Source: Polytrichum commune (Eukaryota; Streptophyta; Polytrichopsida; Polytrichales; Polytrichaceae). Taken from it: a stretch of 64,000 nucleotides of DNA. The notes under the pieces were generated by a model. That model saw only the letters and a program-made list of their open reading frames with translations. It had not been told where the DNA came from and ran no database searches. The position numbers and the translations under genes are program-made. Where the stretch lies: NCBI GenBank assembly GCA_950295325.1, contig OX485805.1, positions 44,602,758 through 44,666,757 of the forward strand, written 5' to 3'. This document shows positions 1 through 60,417 of the stretch, piece after piece (position 1 is the first letter of the stretch; each line of letters starts with the position of its first letter).

Positions 1-230
1 AATATTCAATGAATTCGGATATGCCTTTGATAATTTCTGGTCCATTCCTCATGGGGTCGGGTATGCAAGGCTTTGGATCTCCATCCGGGAGTAAACATTT
101 CCCATCATTATCTTGACGCCATACGAGTATACCATCATCCGGGCCCCAATTAGGAGATGTGCACAAAAGCTTGAATTGCATTGCCGGGAGACCATCATCT
201 CTTATATAGAATCGGAAGCTGAAGACTACT
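1..230 (-). pseudogene. DUF7869-type transposase fragment of element A
   Basis: Read on the minus strand, this stretch encodes residues similar to the C-terminal half of the transposases at 28068-31137 and 60997-64000. Shared landmarks are RDDG-LPAMQ-KLLCTS, then LPDG-PKPC, then KGIS-FI-Y. The frame is open from about 211 down to the window edge. On its 5' side it runs into the unrelated plus-strand MTase-like sequence at about 212-234, so this is a deletion or rearrangement junction and not a normal gene boundary. The role, transposition of the element, is taken from the family and is not shown here. Confidence 0.7.
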
Positions 231-233
231 GCC

Positions 234-1334
234 ATGAGGGACCTGAGCGTACTCGTACCAGAGTACAAAATCTTCCAAGCCAACGGCGACATAAACTGGC
301 CTCAATGGCAATAGTTCAAGTTCGTCTACAACATCAACGGAGCCTCGATGCGCAGTCTGGTCAAGGAGCACGCCTCGGTTTTGAAGTTGAAGGGGAACAA
401 GAGGACGAAGAAAACCGACACGGATCCCCGGGAGGTGGAGCTGTACATAAAAATTTTGGAGAGGAAGAGGAGTGCCACATTCGAAGGAGTGGCAAGGTTT
501 TGTGTGGTGACCTCCGGAGTGGAAAGGGTCACATTTTCCAAGTGGGACAGCACCATCAGCAGGGCCAAGGTGAGGGAGGATCGACGGGGTTGCCCATTTG
601 CCCTGATCGATTTCAGAGGGATCCCGGGTGCGTCGAGGCAGGGGGGGAAAGACATGCCCTTCTACAACCCCTTCATGGCCAAGTTCATGGAGTACAAATC
701 GCCGGCCATGAGGGAGCCTCACGTTTGGCTGTGGATAGTCGAACAGGAGAAGCTGTCGGTTGTCACAGAAATGTATGAGCAGACAATCAAGTTCGAGTAC
801 AACATCTTCCACAGCACGTACGTGCCAGCCAAGACGGAAGGGATCGTGGCCATCAATGAGGCTAGGGGCAACAAACAAGTGGGAGCGGTCAGCCTGATTT
901 TCTTGACGTATAATGCGCTTAGGGATGGGCGACTACCTATCAAGGCAAACAACACGTTCAAGAATATCTACAGCATCCCATATCCCCCTCCCAAGGATCT
1001 GCTACAGGAGACCCTATACACGGTCTTCCCCGCGCTGGAACTCAGGATGGAGTTCTACGTCGCCGTGTTGCAGAGTCTAGTTATAAGTGGAGAGACGGTG
1101 TACAACGTCTACGGAGGCACCAAATTCATGTATGCGGCCATGGTAAGTTGTCCATACTCGATTTACAAACGCTCGTTCGTAAAATTAATCCCCTTCGCAA
1201 TGTAATGCTTCAAACTCGTTGCACGCCAACTTTACAAGTTTTGATGTTTACGAACGCACGTTCGTATTTTCTGACCTCATTGCTCTTGTGTCACAGATGA
1301 TGGGGCTCGTCGTCAACACATATGTTGACACTGT
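234..1334 (+). pseudogene. ParB/MTase-like gene of element A, middle part, N-truncated
   Basis: The reading frame from 234 aligns with residues encoded at about 19112-20100 (minus) in element B. Shared landmarks are LVPE, the FRGIPG/CRNIPG segment, HVWLWIVE/DIWLWIVE, LELRMEFY/DELRMEFY and YNVYGGTKFMYAAM/FNVFGGSKPVYAAM. The last segment resembles the glycine-rich SAM-binding motif at the C-terminal side of beta-class DNA methyltransferases. No clear DPPY motif is seen. A TAG at 312-314 interrupts the frame. The exon ends at 1142 with the donor GTAAGT, and the next exon starts at 1297 after TCACAG and encodes MMGLVVNTYVD. A solo LTR enters in the next codons at 1335. The frame resumes at 4177 on the far side. 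The N-terminal ParB-like region present in B is absent. Confidence 0.65.
1143..1296 (+). repeat. Intron carrying two A-type palindromes
   Basis: This intron has a GTAAGT donor and a TCACAG acceptor and splits the MTase-like gene just after the GG(S/T) motif. It holds two palindromes, at 1162-1183 (centre CT) and 1247-1268 (centre CA). Each has arms close to TTTACGAACG and CGTTCGTAAA. The intron at the same codon in element B (18951-19111) also holds two palindromes, but of the unrelated GTTTGGGTCG family. Confidence 0.8.
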
Positions 1335-4171
1335 TGTGAATCCTTTGAGTGGTCCACCACTCTGCGGGATCACTTTTAGTTAGAATGTTAGCATTAAAAG
1401 TTAGAATTGATAGGGAATTTAGGGAAAATTAGTTCATTTAGCATTTAGCCTAGAAGAAGGAAGGTCAAAATGAAACTAAGTAGTGCTAGAAGATAGCAAA
1501 GTAGAAAAAATATGCTAGCTAGTAAAAACAACTAGCTAAGCAAATATTAGTAGATGCTAGCTATTAAGCAAATGTTAGTAAATGCTAGCTAAGCAAGTGT
1601 TAGTTTATTAGTTAGTGTGAGGCACACAAGACTATTGGAGGTGTTTTACGTAAGAAGATAAAATCGGCGTGAAGAATTTTGAAGACAAAAAAGAAAGAGA
1701 GCAAGGGGGATACTTGTCCACTTGCCCCCTTGCCAACTCGATGGCGGAAAAATTAGAAAGATTTCTAAAGGTTTTTTGTCGGAGCCACCTCGGCGAGAGG
1801 GTGGCAACCTCAACCGGGAAAACCCCCGAGCCAAAATTTCGGGAAAGGGTTTGAAAAATAGATCCGGTGGAGGAGGGGTCCAACCCTTTTGTGAGAGGGT
1901 TTAAAAACCCCTCCTTCCACCTTGTAGCACTCTCTCTTTCTCTAGTTTTTGGGCGAAGCCCTGCTTCAATGTAGTTAGGAAAAAATCCTTTAGTATGCAT
2001 TTTCAATGGCCTAAAAGAAAGGCTTGAGAACCTCCTCTACTCTCTCTCCTAGTTAGAATGTGTGTTTATTAACACACCAACAAAATTATTCCTTCTTTTG
2101 TAGAGGTAGGTTGGATGGTAGAGTTTTGAGTAGAGGCATTATAGACCTCATCTGCCAATGCCCTGAAGGCTTAGTTCAAAAGCTAGAACAAGATACTTAT
2201 CATTTTTCTCTTAGAGAGATTTCATATAGCTATCCATAGCCGTTTCCCATTTGTGATTTGGTTGAGATGACAATTAGTTATGGATTTTCAAAGATGGAGT
2301 AGAAAAACTGGGTGGTCTTGTGGGTAGCGGCTGCTGGATCAGACCTGCGAGCCCAATAGGAATTTTAATTCCAAGAAATTATATTTTTCCCAAGTAGAAC
2401 TTTTGTGTAGCTTTCCAAAATGGCTTAGAACATTTGATTTGAGCATGATTTGAATCAGATATGAATTGTGCAAGATGGGACACATAGTTTGAGAACTTTT
2501 GGTTGACTGCTGCATTACAGAGGACCTGCTGGGTTCACTTCGGCTTACCTTTCTAATCACATATTTTTATCAAATACATCTTTTTAATATCTCTCCAGGG
2601 TCATATAGAACGTTTGATTTGACTAAGATTTGAATTAGATATGAATTGTTGAAGGCGAGATACATAGTTTAAGCCTTCTTGATTGACTGCTGTGTTACAA
2701 GGAGTCCGCTGAATTTCTATTAGCTTAACCTGCTGATGTCATAATTTTTCTAGTTAGAGCTTGTTCATAGCTTTCCAATGGTATAAGGAAAGCCTAGATC
2801 CAAGTAGTAAGGAATGTGCTATGAATTTTTGAAGTTAGAAGGTAGATAGGTGGGTTGGAAGGGTCGGTTGAATCGACCTCACACTTCCAACCCTCATAAC
2901 TTTTGCATTTCTTATCCGATTAGAGTGATTTTTAGATCATTGGAAAGATAATTTGGTGCACTAAGTATAAATATTATGCTTAGGATTAAATTACAGGGCA
3001 GAATAACACTTTATATTTTAATTGTTAACTAAGGTACGCTTACTACCACACTAGTTACAAAGAAGGAGGCAAGGTCGACGCTCGGAAAGTGGAGCAAGGA
3101 AGGAGGTAGCGGCTCGGCCTACATCAAGCCCAAATCAACCGAGGAAAATTGAGGTAAATTAACTAACCTTAAGCCTTCCATTTAGGATTGGAGGGAGCAC
3201 GGCTAAGGTACGCATTTCTAAACCCACTCACCTATCTCGTAAGGTCAAGTGGCTTGACCACTTGACCGCCAAGGGAGTACCCAATTCCATTGTTTTCGGG
3301 GCCCTTGGTATGTTTTGTGGTAGTAGCTTCATTTATTAGCAAGTTTCGTGTGTGGTAAGTCGGATTAATCACCGACACGACCACTCTGAATGTTGTTGGT
3401 GGAAAGGTGGGGTTAATGACCCGCGAATCCACTATTATGTTGTTGGCCCCATAGATTGGGAGTAATGGCCCCAATTTATGAAGATTGCGCAACAGGTTGA
3501 ACCTACAGGTCGCCCGTCACCCTGGTCCCATTGAGTTGCATTTCGTGGTCTATCCAGTGTAAACACATTTAACAATCAAAACATACAAAATAAATCGTAA
3601 ACCCTTGTTGGCAAGAGACCCGAGGTAAGGGGTGATGCCTAATATGTTAATGTAGTGAGTTAGGACGTGCAAACAAAAGTAAGTAATTAAGAAGGAATTT
3701 GTGTGAAGGGTGGGACTTAGGCCAAGTTCCCCCGCTTAGAAAACTAAATAGAACTAAATAAAGAAATAGGAAGAATTGAATGGTCCATCAAATTGTCGTT
3801 ATTCCGTTCGTTGAGTTAGGGTGGTATGAGTCACACCCGGTTGGGTGTATCAGAACCATCCCAATTCACAAATTAGGATTGCCTTGGTTTCAAGGCTGGT
3901 GCGTCTGCGCGTAGAATAGGTTGTAGGTTAAGGTTAGAACTAGATATGAAATTGGTTAGTGGAGTTTAAAGCCACACTAGTAAAAAACTAAGCCCTAACC
4001 TCCGGAGGTACTACGACGCATATTTAATCTCCCTTAAAAATCTAACTACTCACGTTATACACCTATCATCCGGGTTCGGCTTGGGCGCCTGCAAATGCAG
4101 GCCACCTTCACCGAAGGGCTTGTGTGATACTTTTAGGCTCCCTCAAAAGGGGGTGGCCCAAAAGTACCACA
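1335..4171. mobile_element. Solo LTR, copy 1 (2.84 kb), inserted in an exon
   Basis: The sequence starts TGTGAA and ends ACCACA, the TG...CA ends of LTRs. It is nearly identical to 55866-58704 in the same orientation. Most of the visible differences fall in the first 750 bases. Flanks are ACTGT (1330-1334) and GCTGT (4172-4176), a 5-bp target duplication with one mismatch. Ignoring the element and one flank copy brings the two halves of the MTase-like exon into one frame, so this is a single insertion event. There is no gag, pol or primer site. Inside, a segment of about 180 bases is duplicated with divergence (about 2410-2540 and 2600-2720). No convincing gene is present. Confidence 0.88.
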
Positions 4172-5112
4172 GCTGTCGACGAAGAAGATTTCCATATCCA
4201 CCGTGCAAAGGCGTCGATGATGGACCTGAGGGACATCTCTGTCCCGAGGACGGACTTCAATATGCCCGCCGACGAGGGCATACCAATCCACGATTCAGAG
4301 GACGACGAGCCCACCCCCTCCGCCAACCTGGACGCCATCGTCCGGTCCTTCGACATACACCCGCTTCGAATTTTGCCACCAACGACAAATCTTCCCGACC
4401 CTCAAGGGACCCCGGGTGGTTATACCGGTTCGTCAGCGGGCACAACCCAGGATGTCCTCCCCGCGAGAATGTCTTGTGCGGAGGCCTTCGGCATGCCAGA
4501 CAGATGTTCGACGTCACGGTCTCCCAGGCCCTCCGTGGTGCTGAAGATGGAGACCCTCGACCTCCTCGACCAACGCTCGCGTCCATCCTTGGACCACTTC
4601 CGCAATACGAGGAGGAGGATGAAGAAGACTCCCTACGTGGAGTTGCCGCCGGGAGCAATCATCGAGGTCTCCGACGAGGACGAGGGGGACATGGACATCA
4701 TGGCCGAGTTGGGGGTGGACTACGACAAGAACAAGCGGGTGAAGGAGGAGGCGCTGACCGTCGCCAAACTCGAGCAGAAGTTGAAGGAGGAAATGGCGGC
4801 AACCCAAGAGGAGAGCGCCAGGCATTTGGCCAAGATGTAGGGGGAGCTGAGGGCCTCCGTTGTGAAGACCAACGCCATCTTCGAGATGCTCAGGAGCATG
4901 CAGAGCTCCTCTGCGCCGGTCCAGCAGCCTTATCCCTTCCCCCCCGGAGGATACCCCTCACAGCCCCCCTGGCCAAGCATGTACCCAGGAGGACCTTCCC
5001 ACACACCAGCGCCACACCCAACGCCGGCGGGAAGTCCATTGCCCCCAGAGGTGATGGCAACCGCCTCAACCTCCCACGATGCTATCACGGCGGCACTATG
5101 GGAGGATGAAGA

Positions 5113-5134
5113 TTTACGAACGGGCGTTCGTGAA
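5113..5134. repeat. A-type palindrome inside the exon
   Basis: The arms are TTTACGAACG and CGTTCGTGAA with centre GG. The symmetry extends two bases further on each side (GA...TC). It is read as part of the protein (DLRTGVRES). Confidence 0.8.
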
Positions 5135-5499
5135 TCTTCAGGTCCGGTAGTCCTCACCCCTCCCCCTTCAAGGGTAGGATTGCCCTCAGACACGGACACG
5201 GCCTCTTTCACCATCGTCCCAAGGGTAGTAGATAGGCGGGGCGATGACACTGCGCAACACACTGACATGGTCATTGTGGAGGACACGCAGGGGAGCCCCA
5301 ATGACCCGGCAGGTGTCCAAGGGATGGACATGGAGAGCCCTGACCAGAACGACATCCCTCCGCGCACATGGAGGATGTCCGCATGGAGACACTCGACCTG
5401 GGCGGAGACGACGACGTGGAGCTCATCTAGCAGACCCAGACGTCTCAGGCGGAGCGTCCAGCGGAGGTCATGGAGGCAGAAGCGGCTGCCCCAATGGAT

Positions 5500-5521
5500 A
5501 TTACGAACGCGCATTCGTTAA
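5500..5521. repeat. A-type palindrome at the exon end
   Basis: The arms are ATTACGAACG and CATTCGTTAA with centre CG. It lies 8 bases before the splice donor at 5530. In element B a palindrome of the other family lies about 21 bases after the equivalent donor. Confidence 0.75.
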
Positions 5522-5808
5522 TCAAAGAGGTAACTCACTAACCCTGCGTTGTGTTCTTGGTGCTTCAACTCCAGCGACATCACGAGGCCCACGCGAGCCT
5601 TTTTCTACGTGATCCCTTAGCCGATCAATTTTGTAGGACACGGCATAGTTTGCCTTAGGAAACTGTGATAGATTATCACGCGAGACAATTGTAAATATTC
5701 AGCAAATTAATATATGAGCATATGATCTCTGCATCGCATCCCCCCAACTTATTGCATTGTGTTGTGTATGTTCATGCGCATCTTTGCACTCTTTGCATAC
5801 CCACCTCA

Positions 5809-5830
5809 CTCACGAATGCTCGTTCGTAAA
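5809..5830. repeat. A-type palindrome (intron)
   Basis: The arms are CTCACGAATG and CGTTCGTAAA with centre CT. It directly abuts the left edge of the LTR-like sequence at 5833. Confidence 0.7.
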
Positions 5831-5832
5831 AG

Positions 5833-6823
5833 TGTGCGACCCCATGTCCATGTCGCGCACCTCTCCATGAGGAGTGCCCGAAACACCATGGGCACAAGGG
5901 GGACCCCGGAGTGACACCCGGGACTTGTGGCGCCATTGGTGAGAGGGCCCAAGTGATCCTAGTGTGGGTGAGGGCCCCGGGCGTTGGGAACGCCTCCCAC
6001 CCACGGAGACTAGGAGGCACAAGGGTAAGGCCATGAGATATGCGTAGCTCATGGCGTGGTGATTCTAGAATGCTCAAGAACACCTCAATCGGAGGTGTGA
6101 GCTAGGAGTTATGGCCATTTGAGTGGGGTGCTGTCCCGGGACAGCGCCCTGGTACAGCAGTGCCTGGGAGTGATTCCCGGGACTGCCAAGGTTCAAACAG
6201 GCATAACTTCCTCACCACTTGCCCGAATGGGGCAAGTGAGGAGTCCATCGGCATCTACGTGAAGCGTAGATGAGGATGGAGTGGTTGGTTGTTATGATCA
6301 GACATCATACAAGGAAGTTATGATGGTCTGAAGCTGTGGGGGGTTCTAGGCCCAGCGGCTAAGGGAAAATGTCCACTTGGCCCCAACTCTTGGTAGAGAG
6401 ACAAGAGGTTGGTTGATGGTGGGGTAGGGGCCCCGCATAGAGTCCTAGAGGCTTATATGGGTGAGGTGGTGTGGCCTCACCCACCCGAGGCCGAACGGCA
6501 CGGCCTCCATGGGCATTGGCCCATTGTGAGGCCATAGTTGCCTAGTATGGTTCGGGTTGTTGTAGTGTTGCTCCGGCAACACGATGATCAACATAGGATT
6601 GGACTTCCATGGATGGAAGTCCACATCAAAGAAATGGGTTACCGATTAAGGGGTGAGTCCCGAAAGCAAAGTAGGAGGGTTGGTTCCCCTTCTATGAACT
6701 ATGTGGTCCGGGGTAAGAGGAGCTAACCATTAGCATGGCGGTATGCGAAGGGTTAGCGCTCGTAACCTTTGCTAGAAAGGAAAATTGGCAAGATTATTAA
6801 GGGACCTAGCAAGGGTTGCGACA
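5833..6823. mobile_element. Possible solo LTR within the intron
   Basis: It begins TGTGCGACCCC and ends GGGTTGCGACA, which gives inverted TG...CA ends typical of LTRs. The base composition differs from the surroundings. The flanking five bases (AAAAG and GTCCA) do not match, so the borders or the interpretation may be wrong. No coding capacity is seen. Confidence 0.35.
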
Positions 6824-6833
6824 GTCCACCTCC

Positions 6834-6855
6834 TTCGCGAACGAGCGTTCGTATA
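6834..6855. repeat. A-type palindrome (intron)
   Basis: The arms are TTCGCGAACG and CGTTCGTATA with centre AG. Confidence 0.7.
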
Positions 6856-7408: not shown

Positions 7409-7999
7409 GACCCCCCGGAGATAGATCGCAACCCCTCGGCGAATGGACCTCAGACCCGCCACAAGTCCTTCCTAGTTCTTGACCTCAACGGGGTGTTGTG
7501 TCACACCCAACACATCCCCAAGGTTCCCACCCGTCCCTTCCGCGACCTCCCGAGCCCATGCCTCGTCCTTGGCCAAGAGGCGTGCGACGAGCTCGTCGAC
7601 GAGAAGGGGTTTCCGTTGCCAAAGTTTGGCGGTCGAGGCGGGGGACAACAGTTCCTCAAGGTCCTCCGGTCCAAGTTGTGGCAAGGTGTCCCCCTGCTCG
7701 AGGGGGTCCCCCACGGACACTGGCCAACGTTGGAGACCACCCTCCTCATCGACGACAACCCAACCAAGAGCGTCCTCAACCCCCCGGGCAACGTCATCTT
7801 CCCCGACACGTGGACCGGCGATAGGAAAGACATTTTTTGGGTCAATAGGCTAGCACCCTATCTTAGAAGGCTTGTGCTCCACCCCGGGAGCATCCCCGAT
7901 TTTGTTAGGTCCATCCCCATCGGCAAGGCCGCGCTTAGTCCTCGCGACAATGTATATAAGAGCATCGTGCAACTCGCGAAATTCAATAAATTGATATGA
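7409..7999 (+). pseudogene. FCP1/NIF-like HAD domain exon of element A, internally deleted
   Basis: The exon opens in phase 0 and encodes FLVLDLNGVL, the plant form of the FCP1/NLI-interacting-factor motif I. The usual DxD is D-L-N here. It continues with CLVLG, FLKVL, LLIDDNPTKSVLNP (motif IV region) and a conserved tail ending KFNKLI then TGA at 7997-7999. Compared with the B copy (16153-16968), roughly 55 codons between the PTRPF and CLVLG segments are missing in frame. These include the segment expected to hold HAD motif II. Phosphatase activity is therefore unlikely. FCP1-family enzymes act on phosphoserine of the RNA polymerase II tail. Whether this domain binds such a partner is unknown. 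Confidence 0.7.
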
Positions 8000-8106: not shown

Positions 8107-9056
8107 TCTGCCCCCCCATGCAACGCCCCTCTACTCGACGGCCCTTCCAGTCCCCACTCGGCCCTTGCCTCCCCCTCCCGCAACGCGACGGACTTTCAAG
8201 TGCCATCCCTCTACCAGTTCTCGGCGGTGGACGTGGCCTCGGCCGTGGATTACTCCTGTGACGTCGGGATCGAAGACGGCGTCGTCAACAGCCCTCCCCC
8301 CAAACTTCACACGTGCGCACGCACGCCCTGTCGCCCTATCGCCCTCTCCCCTCTCCAAGGAGAAACGAACGCTCGTTCGGTTGGCACATTCGTCGCCCTC
8401 GAGGGATGACGGCGTTGCTCGTCGCGGGCCGAGCCGGCGTCTCCGCATGGAAGCCCCCCCGTGCAACGCCTCCCCCACCGTCTCCGCTCCTCCCCCCGCA
8501 AACTCCTCCCAGGTCGTTCGCCCTCCTTGCATTGACCCCCCCGTCAACGTCCCCAAAGCCAAGGTGCATCTTCTTTAGCCCTAACCCCTTTTCCGCCGTG
8601 TCTTTCCTTGTCTCGCATGTGCGTGCCGCGATGTTTACGAGCGCCCATCCCAAACTGCCCTCGTTTCCCCCATTGCATTCCCGCTCTTGTTTTACTCCTA
8701 CTAAAATGGTCTTCTTTCGCAGGTGGCTACTCGCTCGATGGGTGCCCGGCCCTCCTCGACAATGTCCTTGGATAGGCATGCCCTCAAGGTCACGTCGTCC
8801 GAGTCCGATCGTTGTTTGGCCCTCCGGTGAAGCGCAAGACAATCCCTCTCCCAAACGCACTCGTATTCCACTCACAATACAACTTCGTACAATTCGGGAG
8901 CGCGTCCGGATAATATTATATGGAGGAACGACACATATTCCGGGCCCGTCAACAAAAATGGTTACAGCCGTGCGTCGGAGATTTTCAGAGCCATGGAGGC
9001 TGCCAAAAACAAGGACGCGGCCGCGAAAAAAAATAGTGGGACGGACTCCCTAAACT
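8107..9056 (+). pseudogene. Gene 4 of element A (unknown function), decayed two-exon gene
   Basis: Two exons are conserved between elements A, B and C. Exon 1 starts after GCCGACAG at 8106 and encodes SLYQFSAVDVASAVDYS and GVVNSPPPK. It then shifts frame to a basic stretch and ends VPKAK before GTGCATC (about 8564). Exon 2 starts after TTCGCAG (about 8721) with VATRSMGARPSS, passes an in-frame TGA near 8828, then NTTSYNSGA, and finishes with EIFRAMEAAK and a basic Lys/Ala tail. I recognise no family. It lies about 100 bases after the FCP1-like stop codon on the same strand, so it may be a separate gene or an alternative last part of the same transcription unit. Confidence 0.5.
8362..8383. repeat. 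A-type palindrome inside gene 4
   Basis: The arms are GAAACGAACG and CGTTCGGTTG with centre CT. The same codons in element C (60030-60051) hold the related arms CAAACGAACG and CGTCCGTTTC with centre AG. Confidence 0.7.
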
Positions 9057-9409
9057 AGAAATAGGTTTAGTGCTATAACATATTAGTGATAACTTTCTAT
9101 TTTATTTCTAGTTCTCCAAGACATTGATGGTATTTCCATTATATTTGTATTTATTCCCATTGAAGTAATTCAATTTCCATTCATTATCCGTATCTTCCCT
9201 TCCATTGAGGTCGATTTCTCATTTCATACGCAAATATTTTCATGTATGCTTGACATTTTCTTTCAATTCGATGCCTTTATGTCTTGTAATTGTTTCCAAA
9301 CCTATACATATGTGAGTTTTAGTTCGTAATTACTGGTCCATATTTGGAAAGTGCGTCCTTAAATAGTCTCAAAATCAACTAAAAGTCTCTAATTAATGAA
9401 TATAGTGTT
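9057..9409. repeat. Terminal non-coding region of element A
   Basis: AT-rich sequence between gene 4 and the terminus. It is similar, in reverse complement, to 58945-59330 of element C, including the GGGACGGACTCCCTAAA motif. The last ~60 bases contain AAATAGTCTC, AGTCTCTAATTAATG and the terminal AATATAGTGTT. Confidence 0.65.
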
Positions 9410-14690: not shown

Positions 14691-15231
14691 AACACTATAT
14701 TCGTTAAATTGAGACTTTTTGGGCATTTTGAGACATTCACAGAAATAAGAACAAGGATAAATGGAACACATATTGGAGAAAGTTGTAAGATGCGAACACT
14801 TTGAAGCGGGTGTTTAGAACAAGAACCCCGTTAATAACTCAATATTTGGGATTGTTTAGGGTGGGCAATCCAAACCTTAGGCCAAGTTGAAGGGGAAATC
14901 TTAAAACATTCATATTATCGCACAAAAACTTGTATGAATATGGTTTAGGTAGGGCAATCCAAACCATAGATCATATTGAAGGGGAAATATGTGAACCAAT
15001 ATAATATAACATACAAAATATTCCAAACTCATATTTGTGATGGTTTAGGTAGGGCAATCCAAACCTTAGACCATATGGAAGGGGAAATCATGTGACACTT
15101 ATATTATTGCAAAAAAAAAACATACAAAGTGTGGCATGTAAAATGCATAGCATGCTAACACAACACATCCATTGGATAGTGCGACCCAAAATGTTCTTGC
15201 CTATGGCCCAAAACCCTACGCCTACTATGGC
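14691..15231. repeat. Left terminal region of B with three decayed palindromes
   Basis: After the terminal repeat, a unit of about 90 bases occurs three times. Each contains GTTTAGG(G)T(A)G, two bases, then CAATCCAAAC (14854-14875, 14943-14964, 15043-15064). These keep the 10+2+10 build of the B palindrome with two or three changes per arm. No gene is seen before 15232. Confidence 0.65.
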
Positions 15232-16033
15232 CTATCTAGCCTCGGAGACTACCTCTTTTTCTTTTGCTTCATTTTCTTTTGCTTTTTTTTCTTTTTTTTC
15301 TTTTTCTTTTGCTACGGCTTCTTTTGCTCGCATTGCTTCAACATTCCTGAAAATCTCCGCCCCGCGACTATAGCCATTCTTGGGGTGACCGCCATCAATA
15401 ACACATTTTGGATTCCGTCGGCCGCCCGAATTATACGACGAAGAATTCGAATACGATGAAGTGGACTGTCTTGCATTTCTGGTCATGGAGTAGAAACGCT
15501 CCAACTCGACGGACGCACTAGCCCGCATAGGTCTACGGGTGGGAGCAACCTGCAACGCGTGAATGCAAGAACACACGTGTTAGTTTAGGGAGGAAGACCC
15601 AAACGTGTCACACGTTCATTTTTTAAGTGCCGGATGATTGTAATGCGCGGTTAACCATGTTTTGGGGGGGGGGGTTCACCTTGTCACCGGGGGCGTTCCC
15701 GTCGGAGTCGGCGAGGAGGGGCAATGCGTCCCGCAAAGGAATAGGAAGGGTGCCACTCTTCGTAGGCCGAGCGTCCATCCGCAGCCGCCGTTGAGGTGTA
15801 CTACTGCCGCCGGGCCGAGAGGGGGACGTCCGGACGCATTTGCGATTTATGCCCTTGAGCGGCGACGGGGACGGAGATCGCCGGAAGATTTGCTTGGGTG
15901 GGGGGCTATCGACGACGCCGGCGTCAAGAGGCTCCTTGGAGTAGTCGATGGTGGATGCGGCATCGTAGACGGTCTCGTAGAAGAAGCTCCCCAAGTTTTA
16001 TTCGCTGACGATCTCAATCGAGGGCTCCAAACG
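15232..16033 (-). pseudogene. Gene 4 of element B (unknown function)
   Basis: Exon 1 (16033-15680) follows the acceptor GCCATCAG and encodes FFYETVYDAASTIDYSKE, GVVDSPPPK and a basic stretch. It ends GDK before GTGAACC. Exon 2 (15549-15232) follows GTTGCAG with VAPTRRPMRASASVELE, then SSSYNSGG, NGYSRGAEIFRNVEAM and a long Lys/Glu/Ala-rich tail that is predicted helical. The splice points match those in A and C. A TAA near the start of exon 1, after EIVSE, interrupts the frame unless translation begins later. I recognise no family. The acidic-basic tail after EIFR is the most conserved part. Confidence 0.5.
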
Positions 16034-16152
16034 CTGATGGCAAAATTAAAACAAACAAAACCCAAGGGGAGGGGGGCAGGGGGGGAGCATGAGAAAATCG
16101 ATATACAATTGAGGCATACTATATCACACACAATGGCACACCATGTAGTATC

Positions 16153-16968
16153 TCAAATGAGTTTATTATATTTCGCGTGAGCGTACAACTCTCTGTACAT
16201 ATAGTCCTTCGGATCCATGTATCTTTCGCCTATCGGATTACAACTAAGGAACCGGGGCACGGGTAGTCCGCTCCCCACGAGCGTTTGAATGTACTTAAGT
16301 AGGTCTAACAAAAAGCGGTCTCGGACCTTCTCGACCGTCCACGTGGGGCAAACGATGAAGTTGGAGGTCGGGTTCAAAATGTTTTTGGAAGCGATGTCGT
16401 CCACCATCAACGTGTTGTCACGGGTGGGGCGAACGTCGTAGGGACAGCCGACCATGGTCGGACGCTGGTCCCATACGACTGGCTTCAAGACCTTAAGAAA
16501 TTGGTTTACGGCGGGGTTGTTGGGCTTCTTCACAACCCTGCCCTTGGGGGTGTACAATGTTTTACAAGAATCATGTCCTAGGACCAAGCACGGGGGTTGG
16601 AGTCCCTTGAAGATGAACTCCACGACGGCCTGGATATTCTCGGACTTCATGGAGCTCCAAATGATCACCCACCATTTGGATAGGGCGACCTGTAGGAAGC
16701 GCCGAAGCCACGGGCGGAGGTACACTAGCTTGTTTTTGATGTACGCGGGGGGGGGTCCATCGTAGTTGGCGTCCTCGGGCTTGCAGAAAGGCACCGTTGG
16801 GACCCTCGGACAATGCACGCACTGGACAAGGACCCCGTTGAGGTCTAGCACCAGGAACCGGGTCTTGGGAGGCGAAGGTGGCGAGGGCAAAATCGGGGGG
16901 ACCACCGCGCTGTCCTCCACACTCCTCGGAGAGGATCGGTGGGGAGCCGCGACGCTATGCTCCGAACC
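16153..16968 (-). CDS. FCP1/NIF-like HAD domain, last exon of the B cargo gene
   Basis: This exon starts after CGCCGCAG in phase 0 and ends with KYNKLI and TGA (16153-16155). About 30 low-complexity residues precede RFLVLDLNGVLVQ (motif I). Then come YLRPWLRRFLQVALSKWWVIIWSSMK (motif II region, with tryptophans typical of FCP1/NIF domains), CLVLGHDSCK, NQFLKVLKPVVW and LMVDDIASKNILNP (motif IV region). Motif I is D-L-N-G-V, so the second aspartate of the DxDx(T/V) acid-base pair is Asn. The domain may bind phosphoprotein without cleaving it. It is open throughout, unlike the A copy. It is probably translated as the C-terminal domain of the upstream ParB/MTase-like protein, because the splice phase agrees in both elements. 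A separate short transcript cannot be excluded. Confidence 0.7.
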   Translation of the reverse strand, partial: GSEHSVAAPHRSSPRSVEDSAVVPPILPSPPSPPKTRFLVLDLNGVLVQCVHCPRVPTVPFCKPEDANYDGPPPAYIKNKLVYLRPWLRRFLQVALSKWWVIIWSSMKSENIQAVVEFIFKGLQPPCLVLGHDSCKTLYTPKGRVVKKPNNPAVNQFLKVLKPVVWDQRPTMVGCPYDVRPTRDNTLMVDDIASKNILNPTSNFIVCPTWTVEKVRDRFLLDLLKYIQTLVGSGLPVPRFLSCNPIGERYMDPKDYMYRELYAHAKYNKLI

Positions 16969-17463
16969 CTGCGGCGACGAGCGAGAGAAGGCGGCGAGGA
17001 CTATGTTATGCTATGTCCATCTCAAGCAGAACGGAAATTTTGTGCAAACACAAGAAGAATTGGACCATTGGTGGCAACAAAAACATACAAGGGAACAACA
17101 TACATTGGGACACGGATGCAAACATATGGGCGCCAAAAATAATAATTTTATTTTTACAAATCTCTATGTACAATTTGATTCGGGGGGGGGGGGGGGGGGG
17201 CGCGGTGAACGAGGGCATTCACACTATCCTAATTCTACATCTACAAAATTGGTTGCGCGCCGCCAAGGTCGAGCGTAGTCGAATGCAGGTGAGACGAAGG
17301 GGATCGCGGGGGGGCACGTTGGGGGGAGGGGGAGCAAGTGTAGACCAGGGGGGGCAGGGGGTGTGCATTTCCTCCTAGCATGGGGGACACGACCACGCCA
17401 ACAAGACAATGACCCAGGAAGTTTGGGTCGGTCGACCCAAACTGGGAGGGCTCAGTGTATTAC
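16969..17463 (-). other. Intron before the FCP1-like exon (B), with G-tract and palindrome
   Basis: The donor GAG|GTAATA and acceptor CGCCGCAG are both phase 0. It contains a run of about 20 G (17180-17200) and further G-rich tracts at 17300-17360. A perfect B-type palindrome with centre GT lies at 17421-17442. No gene is seen. Confidence 0.65.
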
Positions 17464-18950
17464 CTCGCCCTGGTCATGTCTCGACGATGTGGAAGCCTCC
17501 ACCGTCCCCGCTGCCCCGCCTCTCTCGCCACCGCCTTCTCCGACGACGTCAGGAACCTTCTCCTGCAAACGATCGGCATCAGGCCCTTGTCCTAAACCAA
17601 TCTCCGCATGTGCATCATGCATGGGTTCATCGATTTGGTTAGGAGTAGAGGTATCACCAGGCCCTTGCAGGCCTTCAACATCTAGCATGGCCGTGTCTAG
17701 TTGACACCCATGTTGGTCAAGGGAGGACTGCGCTGCAACGGGGTTTGGGTCGCCCGACCCAAACTGTCCTGCATCTGGAGAGGGCCCTTCGGACACTACA
17801 GTGGATGGTGGGTTTGGGTCGGTCGACCCAAACATCCTGGGGTCGTCCGATTGGTGGGGTGGCGCCATGACTATGGGGGGCCGAAGTGGTGGAGGGCCCA
17901 AAGGGGAGGAGGCTCCAGAGACGCGCCAGATGTTGGAGTCATCCACTTGCTGGACCGGCGCGTACGGAACTTGGTGGGGCTGCATCAAGTGCTGGAAGCT
18001 GAAAGACGATTGCGGCACAGGCTGCTGAGGGATGCTCTGCGGATGGAAGCCGGGGGGCAAGTGCGGGAAGGAGCTGGAAGGAGCCACCACCAAACCTTGC
18101 GCCCACATTCCTTGTATCACTTGTGATATCAAGTCGGCGTGAGACGGAGGTTGGGCCATCGCCCTTTGACGCTCCTGCTCCAACAGGAGAGCCCTCAGCT
18201 CTGCGACCTCGTTCCGCATTGAGGGTTCTTCTGCGGCAGCCTTCTGCAGGCGGACTCGCTGCTCCTTGTCCCTCCTCATCTTCTCGTTCGCCTCCTCCAC
18301 AGTCAGGACCTCGGGCTTCACCCTAACCATGCCAGCGAACGCTGTCGGGGACGGGGGATCTGATCTTAGCCGTTTGGCGAGCTCAATGTCATCGTCGTCC
18401 TCACTACTTATGGCAATGGTCTCCTCCACGGAGTAGTCGCCATACAGCTTCTTCCCCTTTAACTTCCTCCTCTCCTTGAACGTCGCGGTGGCGTCCCTGG
18501 AGTACATGTCCCGTGCATCGTCCACAGTCAGGACGGGCACGAGCTTACTCTGCGGGGTTGCCGCCCGCATCGCCTTCTTCCGTTGAGGGGCTTCGGATTC
18601 TTGCGTGAAGCCCGTTGCCCCTTCCTCGACGTCGCCTTCTTCTCCGCCTCCTCGTGTTCCTCTTCTTCCTCCTCCTCCTCCTCAACCTCGCCACCTTCTG
18701 TGCGGGACGGATTGCCCGGATGCAACCCGACCAGAGGTTCGGGAACTTGGGTCGTGGCCCTCATGGCCATTTCCTCCGGGTTGATGCGCCTCACCCTATC
18801 AAGAGGGTTTTCGCCACCCTGAACAACCTCGTCGACGTAGCTACCCGGGATCCAATCGAGGATGTCCATCTTCTTCGCCAGCGATTTCTGCACCCTGTAA
18901 AATGGCAGATCGCCATCCTCTATGTAGGAGTATATATTCAGCCCCGACAT
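17464..18950 (-). pseudogene. ParB/MTase-like gene of B, exon 3 (MTase tail and low-complexity region)
   Basis: The exon opens after TGTGTAG with MSGLNIYSYIEDGDLPFYRVQKSLAKKM. This continues the preceding GGS...AAM motif as in DNA methyltransferases, where a strand ending in an acidic residue binds the SAM ribose. After an acidic Glu repeat the frame changes (overlap near 18528-18640). The exon length is not a multiple of three although both borders are phase 0, so an indel in the GAG/GAA repeat or an unseen intron must be assumed. The rest has a charged helix (18200-18330), a Pro/Gln/His-rich stretch and an acidic tail. It holds two in-frame palindromes, read as FGSGDPN and FGSTDPN. The function of the tail is unknown. 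Confidence 0.55.
17743..17833. repeat. Two B-type palindromes in coding sequence
   Basis: 17743-17764 has perfect arms GTTTGGGTCG and CGACCCAAAC with centre CC. 17812-17833 has the same arms with centre GT. Both add seven codons without a stop. Confidence 0.9.
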
Positions 18951-19111
18951 CTACACAATCCAAGTTATAGGGAAATTAGAATTTGTCGAGGCAATCACAT
19001 AAACAAGACTAAATACAATGTGTAGTTTGGGTCGGTCGACCCAAACCTGCAAAGAGCCTAGTTTGGGTCGGTCGACCCAAACCTGCTTACGAGCTATAGA
19101 AAGTCACTTAC
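18951..19111 (-). repeat. Intron with two B-type palindromes
   Basis: The donor is ATG|GTAAGT and the acceptor TGTGTAG. It holds perfect palindromes at 19025-19046 and 19061-19082, both with centre GT. The position in the gene equals the A intron 1143-1296. Confidence 0.9.
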
Positions 19112-20441
19112 CATAGCAGCATAGACAGGTTTTGAGCCTCCGAAGACGTTGAAGATGCAGTCCCCTCTCCTCGTCAGCGTCCTCATCATTCTCATGTAAA
19201 ATTCCATCCGCAGCTCATCTGCAGGATAGTTCGCGTATTTAGCCTCGTCGTAGAGGCACTTGTTCGCACCCAACCCTTCTGGAACTTGGAAGAGTTTGTC
19301 CATCCGGGATATAGGGTGGTTTGGCACCTTCAGCAACTTCGCTTTGTACACGAAGTACAAACACAAGACGTTGACGAACTTGGTCTTCTTGTCCTTCAAC
19401 GTCGTGTAAGCCCCCTCCGCCGGTGCGGCGATGTAGTGAGACTTGGACACTGCATACTCCGGCTGCAGTTTCCGGACAAGCTCGTACACCTGCTCCGCCC
19501 TTCTATCCTCGACTATCCAAAGCCAGATATCTACCTCCCTGAACTTAGGGCTTGCATAATCGACGAACTTAGTTAAGAAGGGGTCGTAGAAAAGGGTGCT
19601 CATCGTGCCCTCAAATGAGCTTCCAGGAATATTTCTACAATCAATCATCCCAAAAGGAAAGCGGTCCTTTGCTTTCGTCCTTATCGCCATTCTGGCGTCT
19701 TGACCTGGCCAGCCCTGAATTTTCAAAGGCTCGAAGGTGACAAGGTTGAAGTAGGCGTCCCCTTCAAACTGGACAATCTTCTTCTCCTTGATGAAGTTCG
19801 AGAACGCACGCGCTGTGTGATCCGGAAGCGCCCGGTTCTTCCCACCTTTCACCATCTTGGCCCGCAAGAAGTCGTCCCCCGCTTCCCTTATTAGAGCCGC
19901 CATGGAGGCACTGGTGAACTTATATTCATCTTTGAATGCTCTCCAGTTAGCCCCATGAACCTCGCCGTCTACGACAATATTCCTCTCTGGCACCAATTTA
20001 TGCAGCTCCTGCACGATAGTCGTCTTCTTTTTCCTGTTATCCGTCCATTCCTTCATGGTGTAGCATGAAGGAACGAAGGATTTGGGCTTTTGGAAGACAA
20101 TCTTCGGGTGCACCCAACACCTCTTCGCCGTGGGTGCCACGTGCAGGATGTGAGATGCCGCCTTCTCCACCTCCGTCTCTGACAGCCCTTGAAGAGTTCT
20201 AAAGAACTCTCTCACGAGAGGCTTCATCTGCTTGAAGCGCGAGGTTTGGCTGAAGAAAATGCCAGTGTCGGGGTCGATCAAATCCCCCGTCTCGTGCTTT
20301 TCAAACACGGTTTTCCACTTCCTCCAAACTGAGTCCGATGCTGTAATCAAGTAAATTACCCTTGAGGTCGCTGTATTTCTTCTGCTTGTGGCTCGAATTA
20401 TCAATGGAGGAGAATTTGTTGATCATTTGGTATTTGAAATT
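19112..20441 (-). CDS. ParB/MTase-like gene of B, exon 2 (MTase-like core)
   Basis: The exon starts after CACGTGCAG in phase 0. The frame joins exon 1 only if 19 bases at 20341-20359 are skipped; these begin GT and end AG. Landmarks in order are FEKHETGDLIDPDTGIFF, CWVHPK, LVPERNIVVDGEVHGANW, FGMIDCRNIPG, LFYDPFLTKF, DIWLWIVED, DELRMEFYMRMM and GDCIFNVFGGSKPVYAAM. The last follows the 'relocation' helix, as in beta-class N4/N6 methyltransferases, where the FxGxG-like loop binds SAM. I see no canonical DPPY or DPPW catalytic motif; MIDCRNIPG stands where one might expect it. The likely role is DNA binding or modification in the nucleus. Catalysis is doubtful. Fold assignment is by pattern only. 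Confidence 0.55.
20341..20359 (-). other. 19-nt GT...AG segment that breaks the frame
   Basis: On the minus strand the segment begins GTAATT and ends ATTACAG, between codons for SDLK and ASDSVW. Read through, the exon-1 frame stops at a TGA about 35 bases later. Without it, the frame runs on to FEKHETG. It is far shorter than known plant introns, so an insertion in a dead copy is equally possible. Confidence 0.4.
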
Positions 20442-20709
20442 CTGCACGTGAACAAAACAGAACATTTGAATGCGTGTTAGTTAAGTACATGTGATTTCCA
20501 AACCATATCATGACCAACATCTACAACAAGAGTTTGGGTCGGTCGACCCAAACTGAAAAAAAACACAAGACTGCAACAGTTGTTTGGGTCGATCGACCCA
20601 AACTAAAAAAACACAAGACTGCAACAGTTGTTTGGGTCGATCGACCCAAACTAAAAAAAACACAAGACTGCACCAGGAGTTTGGGTCGGTCGACCCAAAC
20701 AATACTCAC
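20442..20709 (-). repeat. Intron with four B-type palindromes
   Basis: The donor GAG|GTGAGT is canonical and the acceptor is CACGTGCAG. Palindromes are at 20532-20553 (GT), 20582-20603 (AT), 20630-20651 (AT) and 20679-20700 (GT). All have perfect arms, separated by a 49-bp repeat containing AAACACAAGACTGCA. Confidence 0.9.
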
Positions 20710-22035
20710 CTCCCACTTGGGATTCTTGTCCTTCGCATTCTCCCTCTCCTTGGGAGGCCTACCATAGAACTCCCACACCTCCCGCGAGGCCATGATATTC
20801 CTTATCCAGGAAGCTTGGTAGGCCCTCTTCTTGTTTCCCATATTGAAGTACCGGGAGATGTCGCTGAGCTTGGTCTCGTCGTCAGACCACACCACCAGTG
20901 CCTTCCAAACCTTCAGCTTTTCCTTCTGATTGTTGGGATCGTCCCACTCATTCATGAGTTGGATTTTCTTGGATGCCTCCACGCTGTGTTGGCCGTCCAT
21001 CAGCCAAAAATCGCCCTTCTGAATTGTTGGCCACATTTCAGGTGTAGGCATTTTCTTGAGACCCTGTGGCATCACTACAATCGTTTGCCTGTCGTCTTTA
21101 AACTGCTCGCAAACGATCTGCGCGATTATCCAGTCAACGTAGGCGTCCTCCTTTGCCCGGACACACTTCTCCGGTGGCGCTAGATGGCACTGGCTGATGT
21201 TCACGTCGAACTTGAAATCCCTGCCCATGAAAAAACAGTGGGAGCATTTCGTCGTGAAATTGTTCACGATTTTCTGCAGCTCCCCTGCATCCACCTCTTC
21301 GCCGGGCTTCGGCATGCGCAACTCCGGTGAGACTGGCTCGTCAGTCATCACAGATGACTCTCTCGCCCTCTTGGATGGAGTTGTTTGACGGCTCCCAGAA
21401 GGTGTAGGGGTCTCACTATTCGTAGGTGTTTGGGAGGGAGTGGTCCTACGCGAGTCAGCCGGTACTGGAAGCGGCATCCTCACCGATTGAGGTCTTGACG
21501 ACCCTGCTCCTTCCTCTGTGGGAGCTTTCCGCCTCACAGGTTGCTGTGATTTGGTTTTGCTTTGCAGGCCCCTGTTCAGCACGGTTATTGCATGTTTTAG
21601 TTTTGTGAACCGGCTTGAGACCTTGGTATTCGATGTACTCCCATCGATAAATATTGTCTCCGGCTTGATAACTTCCGGTTCGACACAGGACTCTCTTGCA
21701 TAGAGTGCGTCGAAAGGCTCGGAGAACTGGTGCATGAACATATGCGCGTTCTGCACAGCCGAGTTCTCGAGGATGACGTCGGTATAGTCTCCAAGAGACT
21801 GTACCGATGCGACCTCCCATCCCGTAAGAGTCGCCCAGGTGTGTTTCTCCACGGTTCCCACCTTGACAACAAAAATCATTTTGTATGTTGAGGCTTTGAC
21901 TACTTGAATAGACCAAGCGAGGACAAGCCCGTCCTTAGGGGAATAGGAGTCATCCTGCGGGGTTTCGTGCTCCTGCCACAACATGTCCGGCGCAGGCATG
22001 AACCACCTTTCGCCGGGTCTTTTCTTTGGAGCCAT
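20710..22035 (-). CDS. ParB/sulfiredoxin-like domain, first exon of the B cargo gene
   Basis: The start is the ATG at 22035 (MAPKKRPGERWF). The exon of 442 codons ends NPKWE before GTGAGT. The N-terminal third contains no motif I know, although IKPETIFIDG resembles the WIPPEKLKV-type entry of ParB-like domains. A Ser/Pro/Thr-rich linker follows. Near residues 290-360 the order YVDWIIAQI, QTIVVMPQG, WPTIQKGDFWLMDGQHSVEASKKI matches the ParB/Srx core. In that core GxHR or DGQHR contacts nucleotide or phosphate; here it is DGQHS (residues 347-351). After it, LKVWKALVVW and a helical stretch follow. Bacterial ParB proteins bind palindromic parS sites. A DNA-binding role on the element's own palindromes is an inference. 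The frame is fully open. Confidence 0.55.
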
Positions 22036-22061
22036 CTGTAAGAGAATAATGCGCAAAGTTA

Positions 22062-22496
22062 GTTTCGGTCGTTCGACCCAAACATCTACGACATGAATAG
22101 GTTTAGGTGGATTGTGTATTTATATATTTCAGCATCATTTGTAATGATAATAAGAATGTTGTGATTATTGGGTGGATTTGCATTTTATATTGTTTGTGAC
22201 ATGCAGGATTCCTTGATACTTTTCCTTCATGCATTCCTTGATTATTATTTTGGGTTGATGTGAATTTTATATTGATGCAAAAATCATGGATTTCTTTATG
22301 AGTTTATAATTAGAAGACTTAGTTTGGGTCGTTCGACCCAAACATGATGATTTGTGTTATATTTGGGTCGTTCGGCCCAAACATGATGCTTTGTTTTGTG
22401 TTTGGGTCGAGCGACCCAAACAAGGGGCTGTGTTTGGGGCTGTGTTTGGGTCGGTCGACCCAAACAAGAGGCTGTGTTTGGGTCGTCTCCCCAAAC
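22062..22496. repeat. Palindrome cluster upstream of the ParB-like start
   Basis: Six sites are seen: 22062-22083 (TT, one arm change), 22322-22343 (TT), 22361-22382 (TT, changed arms), 22400-22421 (AG), 22444-22465 (GT) and 22476-22496 (degenerate). The first is 27 bases upstream of the ATG at 22035, so it lies in the promoter or leader of the minus-strand gene. This suggests, but does not show, autoregulation. Confidence 0.85.
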
Positions 22497-22735
22497 AGTA
22501 TTATTTTAATGTATTTTTTAAACTTGGCATCTAGCATATGCAATGCTTATGCATTGTGTAATATGCTACAAAACCGTGAATATACAAACACATATTGGTT
22601 AAAATAAAACACAATACCTTTCAAAGATGTTGTGCAGACAATTTGGAGTAGAGCAGGTTGTTCTTCCAATAATTCTCAATATCAAACAAACTGTGAGAAA
22701 GTTCAATGAGAAACTTTCAAACAAGTATCAACTCT

Positions 22736-23030
22736 CTCAAATAGCTCTTGGATCTCTCAACCAACTCCTGAATCTCACACAGAACTACTGAATCTCTCAA
22801 AAGACTTCGAAATGTCTAAACCAACTCCTGAATCTCACACACAACTACTAAACCTCTCAAAAGCCTTCGAAATGTCCAAACCAACTCCTGAATCTCACAC
22901 ACAACTACTAAACCTCTCAAAAGACTTCGAAATGTCTAAACCCACTCCTGAATCCCTCACAAAACTACTGAATCTCTCAAACGACTTCGAAAACTCTCAA
23001 ACAACTCTTGATACTCTTAAAGAACTCTTG
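22736..23030. repeat. Tandem 60-bp repeat
   Basis: Four to five diverging copies of a 60-base unit containing CCAACTCCTGAATCTCACAC and AAAAGACTTCGAAATGTC. Being a multiple of three, it keeps a plus-strand frame open (22812-23183, 20-residue repeats SKPTPESHTQLLNLSK). I see no other sign that this is a gene. Its position is in the divergent intergenic region of B. Confidence 0.75.
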
Positions 23031-23183
23031 AATTTCACAAGCACTCCTAAAACTTCCAGTACAAACACCTGGACCTCCCAAACCGAAGCTTTATCTACTA
23101 CCGAATGTTCTACTAACTTCCTTCAGCACTTTCCAATACTCTTCAACACTCTTTTGCTAACTTCCTTCACTCTCACGCTCTAA

Positions 23184-26100: not shown

Positions 26101-26655
26101 AATGTGGCCGCCACCCTTCCTCCCAATGGCGTATGTCATATCCACACAAAACAAAACAAATAGATTAAATAACATAGACTAAGTCATATGACGGCTGGGG
26201 TATCAGAGGGGCATTGATAGATGCGCATTTTTCTACTATAAACAGAAAACGGGGAATTATGTCAGGAGGTTTGAAATAACCTCTGCAAGAGAAGAAGGCG
26301 GGGAAGGCATCCAATGACTAAGTCTGGGAAGCGGAGGTGGATAGTATAAAGGGGCGCACCCCCCAAAAGTCGGTCCTTTTTTTCTCTTCTCCCGCTGTCG
26401 AATTCGTAGAGAGAACTCTTAGTAGGAGCTGTACTTCAAGGTTCGTGCATGCTGCCATTCATGAGCACTTATCCATAGCATGCAAGTTCATGAGCACCTA
26501 TCCACACCATGCAAGCCCACCGTGAACTTTGCAATGAGCTCAAATTCAACACACCACGCAATATCCGCCCCATTATACGCCGGATTTTGTGGTGTACTTG
26601 GGCGAACCTTCACCTTTACACTAGTGTTGGCGGGTCTTGAGTCTGACCCTATGAG
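23184..26655. other. Non-coding intergenic core of element B
   Basis: There is no supported gene. It contains a GC-rich hairpin-like stretch with GCCGCGGCGCTTT (about 23350) and a GA-repeat (23390-23406). TTTAGGG-type telomere-like runs occur near 25145 and 25900. A diverged tandem duplication of about 450-470 bases has copies near 24930-25130 and 25390-25570, with a weaker part at 25640-25745; both copies share AATCACATA-TAGTCGC-AATAAA and TATTAGAT-ATGG. A MITE lies at 24161-24412. Confidence 0.5.
24161..24412. mobile_element. Small derivative (MITE) of the giant element, nested in B
   Basis: The left side TATATTCGTTAATTTGGGATTTT and the right side (reverse complement TTCGCTAATTTGAGATTTT) match the giant element's terminal repeat. 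The 150 bases after the left end match 14715-14850, including AAGATGCAAATACTTTGAAGCGG. The right side matches 31610-31660. It also carries a B-like palindrome at 24323-24344 (GTTTAGGTAG, GA, CGACCCAAAC). No clear target duplication is seen. Confidence 0.7.
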
Positions 26656-27891: not shown

Positions 27892-28067
27892 CCGCACCAA
27901 AATAATTTCTGGAACTTGTTTTGGACTTGCACACAGTGTTGGGAGTTCACATTGTAGTTGTGTTGGAAATGTCTTCATCCTCGGTGTCCCCATTGATCAT
28001 GTTGTCTTGCATTTTTCGATATTTGATTCTTTTGGACCCTTACATTCTTTCCATGTGTGTAGGCGCA

Positions 28068-31000: not shown

Positions 31001-31137
31001 ATACAGATTCCATATTCATAGCATGGAAACCACGGAAAAATCATAGTGGATCAGTGTCCATCCCTCAAAAGTACATAACTTTTGCAAAAGACAACCTTGC
31101 TCGGATCGCAGAAGAAGCAACCCACGTTGAATGAGAA
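28068..31137 (+). pseudogene. DUF7869-type transposase gene of B, one-base frameshift
   Basis: The ATG at 28068 follows an acceptor-like GTGTGTAG. An acidic N-terminus is followed by a Cys/His-bearing region (CCVHRCCQLFPRDKL near 28670; CSKCEKLKRL near 29238). FDNNCIALP precedes a stop at 29562-29564, followed by a possible intron to about 29650. The second segment, MIAHGHGDVKYAHYALDLYP, runs to about 29901. There one T is missing compared with element D (AAGAATTGCCC against AAGAATTTGCCC), shifting the frame. The third segment has LDNCAKDNKSRYVF, FLLVGHTHDDIDASF and the C-terminal domain to the TGA at 31132-31134. D/DN and HTHDDID are the conserved acidic motifs of this family, thought to be an RNase-H-like nuclease. 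This is the best candidate for the enzyme that moved A-D. Confidence 0.7.
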
Positions 31138-31665: not shown

Positions 31666-31738
31666 ATGACTGCATTCTAACCGATAGTCATATCTGGTCT
31701 ATGGCCCTAGTCATATTTTGATTGTTTTCCTAGTAGTG

Positions 31739-55801: not shown

Positions 55802-55865
55802 TGTGGACAACTGGTCGCGGCTACATACAAAATTTGTGTCTATGTGCCCGGATTTCTCGAAGGAT
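55802..55865 (+). pseudogene. Trihelix-type gene, exon 2, left part
   Basis: Encodes VDNWSRLHTKFVSMCPDFSKD, the second helix region with its conserved Trp. It is interrupted after AAGGAT by the LTR at 55866. The frame resumes exactly at 58710. Confidence 0.7.
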
Positions 55866-60296: not shown

Positions 60297-60417
60297 CTAT
60301 GGGCAAGAACAAGAACAAGAACAAGAACAACAATCACAACAACAAAAGACATCCAAAAACGAACCTAGTATTAGTAAATGTGAACCACATGATAATAAGC
60401 AAAGACATGGAGGCATT

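Follow-up and report, generated by a model that had tools for sequence, protein, structure and literature searches.

Lineage-specific palindromes in related DNA transposons of Polytrichum commune, candidate recognition sites of an element-encoded protein with a predicted ParB-like fold

Introduction

VANDAL transposons are Mutator-like elements. In Arabidopsis, the VANC proteins of these transposons cause loss of methylation and are reported to act in anti-silencing (PMC5735166, PMC10398659); the binding motif of VANC21 is 9 bp long, YAGTATTAY, and the VANDAL transposase, VANA, is described as more conserved than VANC (PMC5735166). VANC is the only transposon self-recognition system with co-diverging motifs that was found in the open-licence literature. 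Here, a stretch of 64,000 nucleotides of Polytrichum commune DNA (assembly GCA_950295325.1, contig OX485805.1, positions 44,602,758 to 44,666,757 of the forward strand; hereafter the window) is described, in which two related transposable elements, A and B, share a ParB/methyltransferase (MTase)-like gene and carry palindromes of 10+2+10 build whose arms differ between the two elements.

The arrangement is similar to that described for VANC and the VANDALs in that the protein is encoded by the transposon, short motifs lie in introns, upstream and in other non-coding parts, the motifs have been amplified in tandem repeats and differ between related families in one genome, and the transposase is more conserved than the motif-binding protein, which is putative in the present case (PMC5735166). 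However, the motif is a 22-bp palindrome here as opposed to 9 bp there, and the element here carries a DUF7869 gene, has AACACTATATTCG termini and also bears sites in a coding exon. Since no VANC-type domain was found in the Pfam scans described below (DUF287, whose presence in the Pfam copy was not checked, is among those named in PMC5735166), the present system is not considered a member of the VANC group. By analogy, it may work like VANC while being built from different protein parts, with anti-silencing as the presumed outcome.

Among other systems, En/Spm TnpA has many repeated subterminal 12-bp sites, which are linked to demethylation, but those sites lie near the element ends and the protein is unrelated. 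The operators of ParB and Noc are palindromic, and VirB of Shigella is related to ParB. VirB offsets H-NS silencing and needs CTP (PMC10653881), while ParB and Noc, with their parS and NBS sites, share the ParB-CTPase fold and represent two related proteins with different DNA preference (PMC7383237). These proteins are bacterial, whereas here the fold is predicted in a eukaryotic transposon protein that also has an MTase-like domain and is matched by no ParB family of Pfam. ParB-CTPase/methyltransferase fusions are described from phages (N6_N4 type), archaea (MT-A70) and bacteria, often on mobile elements, and join the same fold to a methyltransferase domain, although the MTase-like domain here is without the DPPY motif; the commonest eukaryotic form of the ParB-CTPase fold named in that survey is sulfiredoxin, and the strings 'plant' and 'transpos' do not occur in its main text (PMC12704722). 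Sireviruses are likewise plant transposable elements with many palindrome copies that vary in sequence between elements, the palindromes being 11-17 bp long in three rows and having a CGG-CCG core in all but one; these are, however, long terminal repeat (LTR) retrotransposons whose motifs are located in the LTRs and close to the envelope gene, and the passages concerned mention no element-encoded binder (PMC2829016). No earlier description of an element such as that reported here was found in the open-licence literature.

Palindromic sites in elements A and B

An earlier note on this DNA, made from the sequence alone, had claimed that elements A and B share the same gene and the same intron, and that each intron has two 10+2+10 palindromes, with arms of one type in A and of another in B. 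Comparison of the exon that precedes intron 2 confirmed the homology, with 110 of 299 aligned residues being identical (37%; tblastn 34.8%, E 4.7e-47), and homologous open reading frames (ORFs) terminate in an identical ...YAAM|VS read-through at the intron 2 boundary. In element A the intron occupies 1143-1296 (plus strand, with GT..AG boundaries) and its palindromes, at 1162-1183 and 1247-1268, differ from TTTACGAACGnnCGTTCGTAAA by one and two mismatches, respectively. In element B the intron occupies 18951-19111 (minus strand) and the palindromes, at 19025-19046 and 19061-19082, are exact copies of GTTTGGGTCGnnCGACCCAAAC. Element A is a broken relative of element B, interrupted by an insertion of 2.84 kb as well as by a stop codon, and the imperfection of its sites is attributed to this decay. 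The same division between types was located, as had also been proposed, at the end of the exon and in the DNA that follows. Thus A-type sites are present in the exon 3 region of A (4121-5521, plus strand) at 5113-5134 and 5500-5521 and thereafter at 5809 and 6834, with a weak site of five mismatches at 7256, while B-type sites between 17421 and 17833 comprise two in exon 3 of B (18950-17452, minus strand), at 17812 and 17743, and one just beyond the stop codon, at 17421.

At a threshold of three mismatches or fewer, the window contains six A-type and 36 B-type sites, as opposed to none of either type in 100 dinucleotide shuffles. The types do not cross at this threshold, with the A sites falling at 1162-6855 and the B sites at 17421-27891. 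Exact copies account for 32 of the B sites, namely 20 in a tandem array, four in intron 1, two in intron 2, two in exon 3, three upstream of the ParB/MTase-like gene and one past its stop codon. The array, of 120-bp repeats at 26642-27893, lies upstream of the DUF7869 gene and has 21 B-type palindromes in all (sites 26656-27891). Intron 1 (20442-20709, minus strand) has its four palindromes (20532, 20582, 20630 and 20679) within a 48-bp tandem repeat, the copies at 20582 and 20630 being complete 22-bp palindromes with no loop, and five palindromes, three of which are exact, lie 5' of the start codon at 22062-22465 (22062, 22322, 22361, 22400 and 22444).

A total of nine weak B-like sites, with four to five mismatches, was found in the window, compared to approximately 0.2 expected from 30 Markov-shuffled windows. 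Five of these lie at 14854-15604, at distances of 163-892 bp inward from the left end of element B, and one, with five mismatches, at 31453-31474 (minus strand), 191 bp inside the right end; the same site recurs at 60657 in a third element, C. Two others, at 37771 and 42705 (five mismatches), are located outside the described elements. Inspection of the site flanks by eye revealed no common junction or target duplication, and the idea that the sites are mobile mini-palindromes was rejected. Separately, a 22-bp sequence that is A-like in one half and B-like in the other, TTTACGAGCGCCCATCCCAAAC, occurs at 8634-8655 and, on the minus strand, at 59696-59717, and is identical in the two copies although their surroundings are only ~75% alike. 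A second palindrome type, of 11+1+11 build (ACACTAAATATnATATTTAGTGT), is present outside the described elements at 37588-37610 and 37948-37970, 360 bp apart.

Arm type across homologous ORFs

The association between arm type and protein lineage was examined in 168 homologous ORFs obtained from protein searches of public contigs. Predicted ORFs run into introns, such that their tails and heads contain translated palindromes, and 155 tail or head segments of at least seven residues were compared codon by codon with ten arm templates, with up to one mismatch allowed. The templates are symmetric and were picked after viewing the tails, and other arm types would be missed. This comparison identified 105 sites in 82 of the 155 segments, distributed over 78 ORFs, whereas no sites appeared when the whole set was shuffled 40 times. 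The other 73 segments, many of them short, are uninformative either way. A template-free scan found a perfect palindrome of at least nine bits in 53 of the 155 segments, whereas 20 shuffles averaged 3.95 such segments and never exceeded 8.

A and B arms were mixed in none of the 78 site-bearing ORFs. Where ORFs have several sites, 19 of 22 fit a single arm, and the remainder (P0039, P0102 and P0122) mix one-base variants within one family. When arm type was mapped onto a tree of exon 2 (96 rows), the 36 rows with an unambiguous arm gave eight changes, whereas 2000 shuffles averaged 19.3 and never gave fewer than 14. Equally few changes were obtained within A alone (17 rows) in 26 of 2000 shuffles, and within B alone (19 rows) in 10 of 2000. 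The exon-2 tree omitted 28 of 122 ORFs that were short or distant, eight of which bear sites, all A-type. An exon-1 tree (42 rows; five of 46 ORFs omitted, one with sites) has 24 rows with four arm types and five changes, a count made without a shuffle test, and exon-1 and exon-2 ORFs of one element were possibly both counted in the cases of P0026/P0151 and P0044/P0165. The test proposed in the earlier note, namely that arm type should track the protein clade, therefore gave the outcome that it anticipated, and neither of the outcomes that it regarded as contrary, arm types unlinked to protein phylogeny or commonly mixed within single elements, appeared. These data support lineage-specific divergence of the motif with the protein.

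Conversely, the description of the two arm families as unrelated did not hold. Positions 2, 3, 6, 9 and 10 are common to A and B arms, and intermediates grade between them, so that A and B are two ends of one series. The A family comprises TTTACGAACG, TTTACGGACG and TTTACGnCCG and the B family GTTTCGGTCG, GTTTCGGGCG, GTTTGGGCCG and GTTTGGGTCG, with the intermediate arms TTTACGGACG and GTTTCGGTCG differing at three of ten positions. Three pairs of ORFs have arms of their own, each pair inside one small clade: GTTTCGGGCG in P0150 and P0151, GTTTCGGTCG in P0119 and P0122, and GTTTGGGCCG in P0148 and P0155. No convincing arms were found in the most distant homologs, P0046, P0125 and P0126. At a homologous place 9 nt past the intron-1 donor, 11 ORFs have sites with B1, B2, B3 or B4 arms. 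Where both halves of a site are readable, the same change is present on both sides in 11 pairs (nine ORFs) and on one side in 13 pairs; symmetric templates favour the counting of symmetric double changes, and the rate observed would fit selection on a site bound by a dimer.

Predicted folds of the ParB/MTase-like protein

The ParB-like and methyltransferase-like identities guessed at in the earlier note hold at the level of predicted fold. In models, the exon 1 part of the protein shows a ParB-CTPase N-domain (ParB/Noc) fold, while the initial 240 residues encoded by exon 2, where a helix-turn-helix DNA-binding domain would follow the CTPase domain in a ParB/Noc protein, have a mostly helical model and fold-search matches are confined to residues 241-462, which are predicted to adopt a Rossmann MTase fold in the beta-class amino-methyltransferase arrangement. 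No Pfam match was found for the exon 1, 2 and 3 ORFs of element B at E values up to 1, or for P0127 and exon 1 at E values up to 5, and the NCBIfam and PHROG rows for exon 1 are weak and not ParB; a ParB-like PHROG was matched weakly by the distant homolog P0046 (E 0.28). The catalytic [DNS]PP[YFW] (DPPY) motif is present in none of 51 aligned rows, which have DFRxxP or close variants instead, and judged from this alignment the amino-methyltransferase domain is probably dead. Residue 216 of exon 2 (P0127 numbering), considered as a specificity determinant, is changed in the B2 and B3 rows but not in B4, and was retained as a lead only. A viral or prokaryotic source was rejected, as no relatives were found in viral contigs or in one genome-contig scan with the exon-2 alignment, and the exact A and B motifs have no match in viral contigs.

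Organisation of the elements

A DNA transposon, element B spans 16,975 bp (14691-31665) and is bounded by 28-bp inverted ends, AACACTATATTCGTTAAATTGAGACTTT, that are identical at 28 of 28 positions, with ATGA at both ends as a candidate 4-bp target duplication (a single case). The terminal repeats enclose a DUF7869 gene, the putative transposase, at 27921-31134 on the plus strand; the match to PF25273 (E 5.1e-36) extends over 29902-31134, and the upstream ORF at 27921-29564 has no Pfam match. On the minus strand are a gene for a NIF-type (FCP/SCP-like) phosphatase (16153-16920; Pfam NIF, E 5.1e-13) and the ParB/MTase-like gene (17452-22035), modelled with three exons and two introns. Its exon 1 is at 22035-20710 and exon 2 at 20441-19112, with a frameshift near 20370 when read against homologs such as P0127. 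A 19-nt mini-intron was considered at this position and rejected, since P0127-like homologs read through in the later frame, which points to a frameshift of the B copy.

Element A has a fragment of the putative DUF7869 transposase gene (2-220, minus strand), 64% identical to that of B (46 of 72 residues), and the MTase-like part encoded by exon 2 (213-1142, plus strand), which has an in-frame TAG at approximately 312-314 and is 37% identical to exon 2 of B. A remnant of the NIF-type phosphatase gene lies at 7448-7999 (plus strand; Pfam E 3.1e-4, just under Pfam's cut-off) and the right terminal inverted repeat at 9382-9409 (minus strand), identical to that of B at 25 of 28 positions. The ends and the transposase fragment are therefore conserved between the elements, whereas the ParB/MTase-like and NIF genes, each at 37% identity, are divergent. 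The phosphatase, carried by both elements, appears unusual as cargo for a DNA transposon, and as a guess it may act on RNA polymerase II.

The 2.84-kb insert in element A (1334-4171) is a later insertion outside the palindrome system and is 99.3% identical to a second copy at 55865-58704. Both have TG...CA ends, and as AGGAT stands on either side of the second copy, the insert looks like a recent LTR-type insertion. Element C (60466-64000) appears to have inserted where an A-like remnant (58945-60465) ends, and is ~98% identical to the right part of element B in two blocks (60466-61526 and 63264-64000); the intervening stretch, 61527-63263, is absent from B and has a 35-bp tandem repeat of ~16 copies at 62014-62582. 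A further terminus of B type at 43832-43900, identical to the end of B at 22 of 28 positions, starts another element. The window also has a DUF4218 gene, of a type known from CACTA elements, and a candidate copia-like frame at 31718-32605, a combination that points to a land plant.

Observed/expected (o/e) CpG ratios are 0.82-0.86 in A and 0.79 across the whole of B, compared to 0.46-0.67 in flanking DNA; values for element C (0.59), the 22036-26641 portion of B (0.63), the array of B (0.50) and the A-like remnant (1.12) are more varied. The pattern in A and B is compatible with reduced methylation, but also with coding content or youth.

Discussion

The sites, their dyad symmetry and their lineage-specific arms are observed directly. 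The explanation that we favour, and hold to be reasonably probable, is that the palindromes are co-diverged recognition sites of a DNA-binding protein of ParB fold encoded by the element. The palindromes, distributed across the whole element, would be sites for a dimeric, sequence-specific protein encoded by the transposon itself, and the likeliest binder would be the product of the palindrome-bearing gene, with its predicted ParB/Noc-fold domain, helical region and probably dead amino-methyltransferase domain. The protein, likely a dimer, would take one half-site per subunit, and the half-sites and protein would have diverged together, such that related elements in one genome would recognise only their own kind through TTTACGAACG arms in A and GTTTGGGTCG arms in B, with sites multiplied by tandem duplication within the element. 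As A and B share one genome, a difference between hosts is ruled out as the cause of the arm difference. Several points weigh against this explanation. The ParB fold was assigned from a model, with a moderate Z score, the arm association is with element lineage as read through the ParB/MTase-like gene, such that the true partner could be a different gene of the element, and the NIF gene has diverged to the same extent as the ParB/MTase-like gene.

It is conceivable, if unlikely, that the binder is the NIF phosphatase, the DUF7869 transposase or a host factor, with the ParB/MTase-like gene only riding along. While the divergence of the NIF gene accords with this idea, the transposase is a poor partner for a changed motif, since its fragment and the ends are conserved between A and B; a host factor ought to be the same for two elements of one genome, and ParB-type folds are known to go together with palindromic sites. 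A somewhat less remote alternative, although still doubtful, is that the element's protein does bind the sites, but in the service of transposition or autoregulation, in the manner of the En/Spm TnpA sites, and not of anti-silencing. The weak B-like sites inside both ends of element B, and the position of the array directly upstream of the transposase gene, are consistent with such a role. However, the exact sites all lie away from the ends, in introns, a coding exon, the region upstream of the gene, its 3' side and the array, and pairing of ends needs no sites in introns or in a coding exon.

Passive inheritance, by which ancestral sites drifted with each lineage in the absence of a co-diverging protein, appears improbable. 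It would account for arm type following descent and for the many intron-1 sites at one homologous place, and a single arm type can spread by tandem duplication; but drift would not alter both half-sites alike, as in the 11 symmetric double changes (with the template bias given above), nor would it keep 32 copies exact across six separate parts of element B. Many sites lie within introns or exons and could fold, and RNA hairpins acting in the transcript, in splicing, export or small-RNA control, were therefore considered also. This explanation was rejected as very improbable on the grounds of a centre of constant length and copies without a loop: a spacer of two was found in 53 of the 155 segments as opposed to only three to five segments for the odd spacers of 1, 3 and 5 (spacers of 0, 4 and 6, in 24 to 32 segments, being taken as the same centre), the copies at 20582 and 20630 are loopless, and 20 of the 32 exact copies sit in the array between two genes.

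If the palindromes are recognition sites of the element-encoded protein, then a VANC-like use would be the likeliest, in which the protein coats its own element and counters host silencing while ignoring other DNA. Anti-silencing as the outcome, in preference to autoregulation or a transposition complex, is offered tentatively and with less than even confidence; because the CpG o/e values also fit coding content or youth, this step is one that we infer. More speculatively still, the transposon may have acquired a ParB-CTPase/methyltransferase fusion of phage-like kind, whose methylating activity was then lost, and may use it as a nucleotide-gated clamp, whereby dimers would load on parS-like palindromes in the introns, exon and array, spread over the element and exclude host silencing, with lineage-specific half-sites restricting the protection to each family's own copies. 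Such a clamp, if real, would constitute an anti-silencing system that evolved independently of VANC.

Were the favoured explanation true, the elements would provide a second system of transposon self-recognition, built from a ParB fold and a dead methyltransferase, indicating that orthogonal self-tags have evolved more than once in selfish DNA. The seven arms of the A and B families listed above, together with their proteins, would then represent a natural series of proteins and 22-bp sites for the study of specificity switching.
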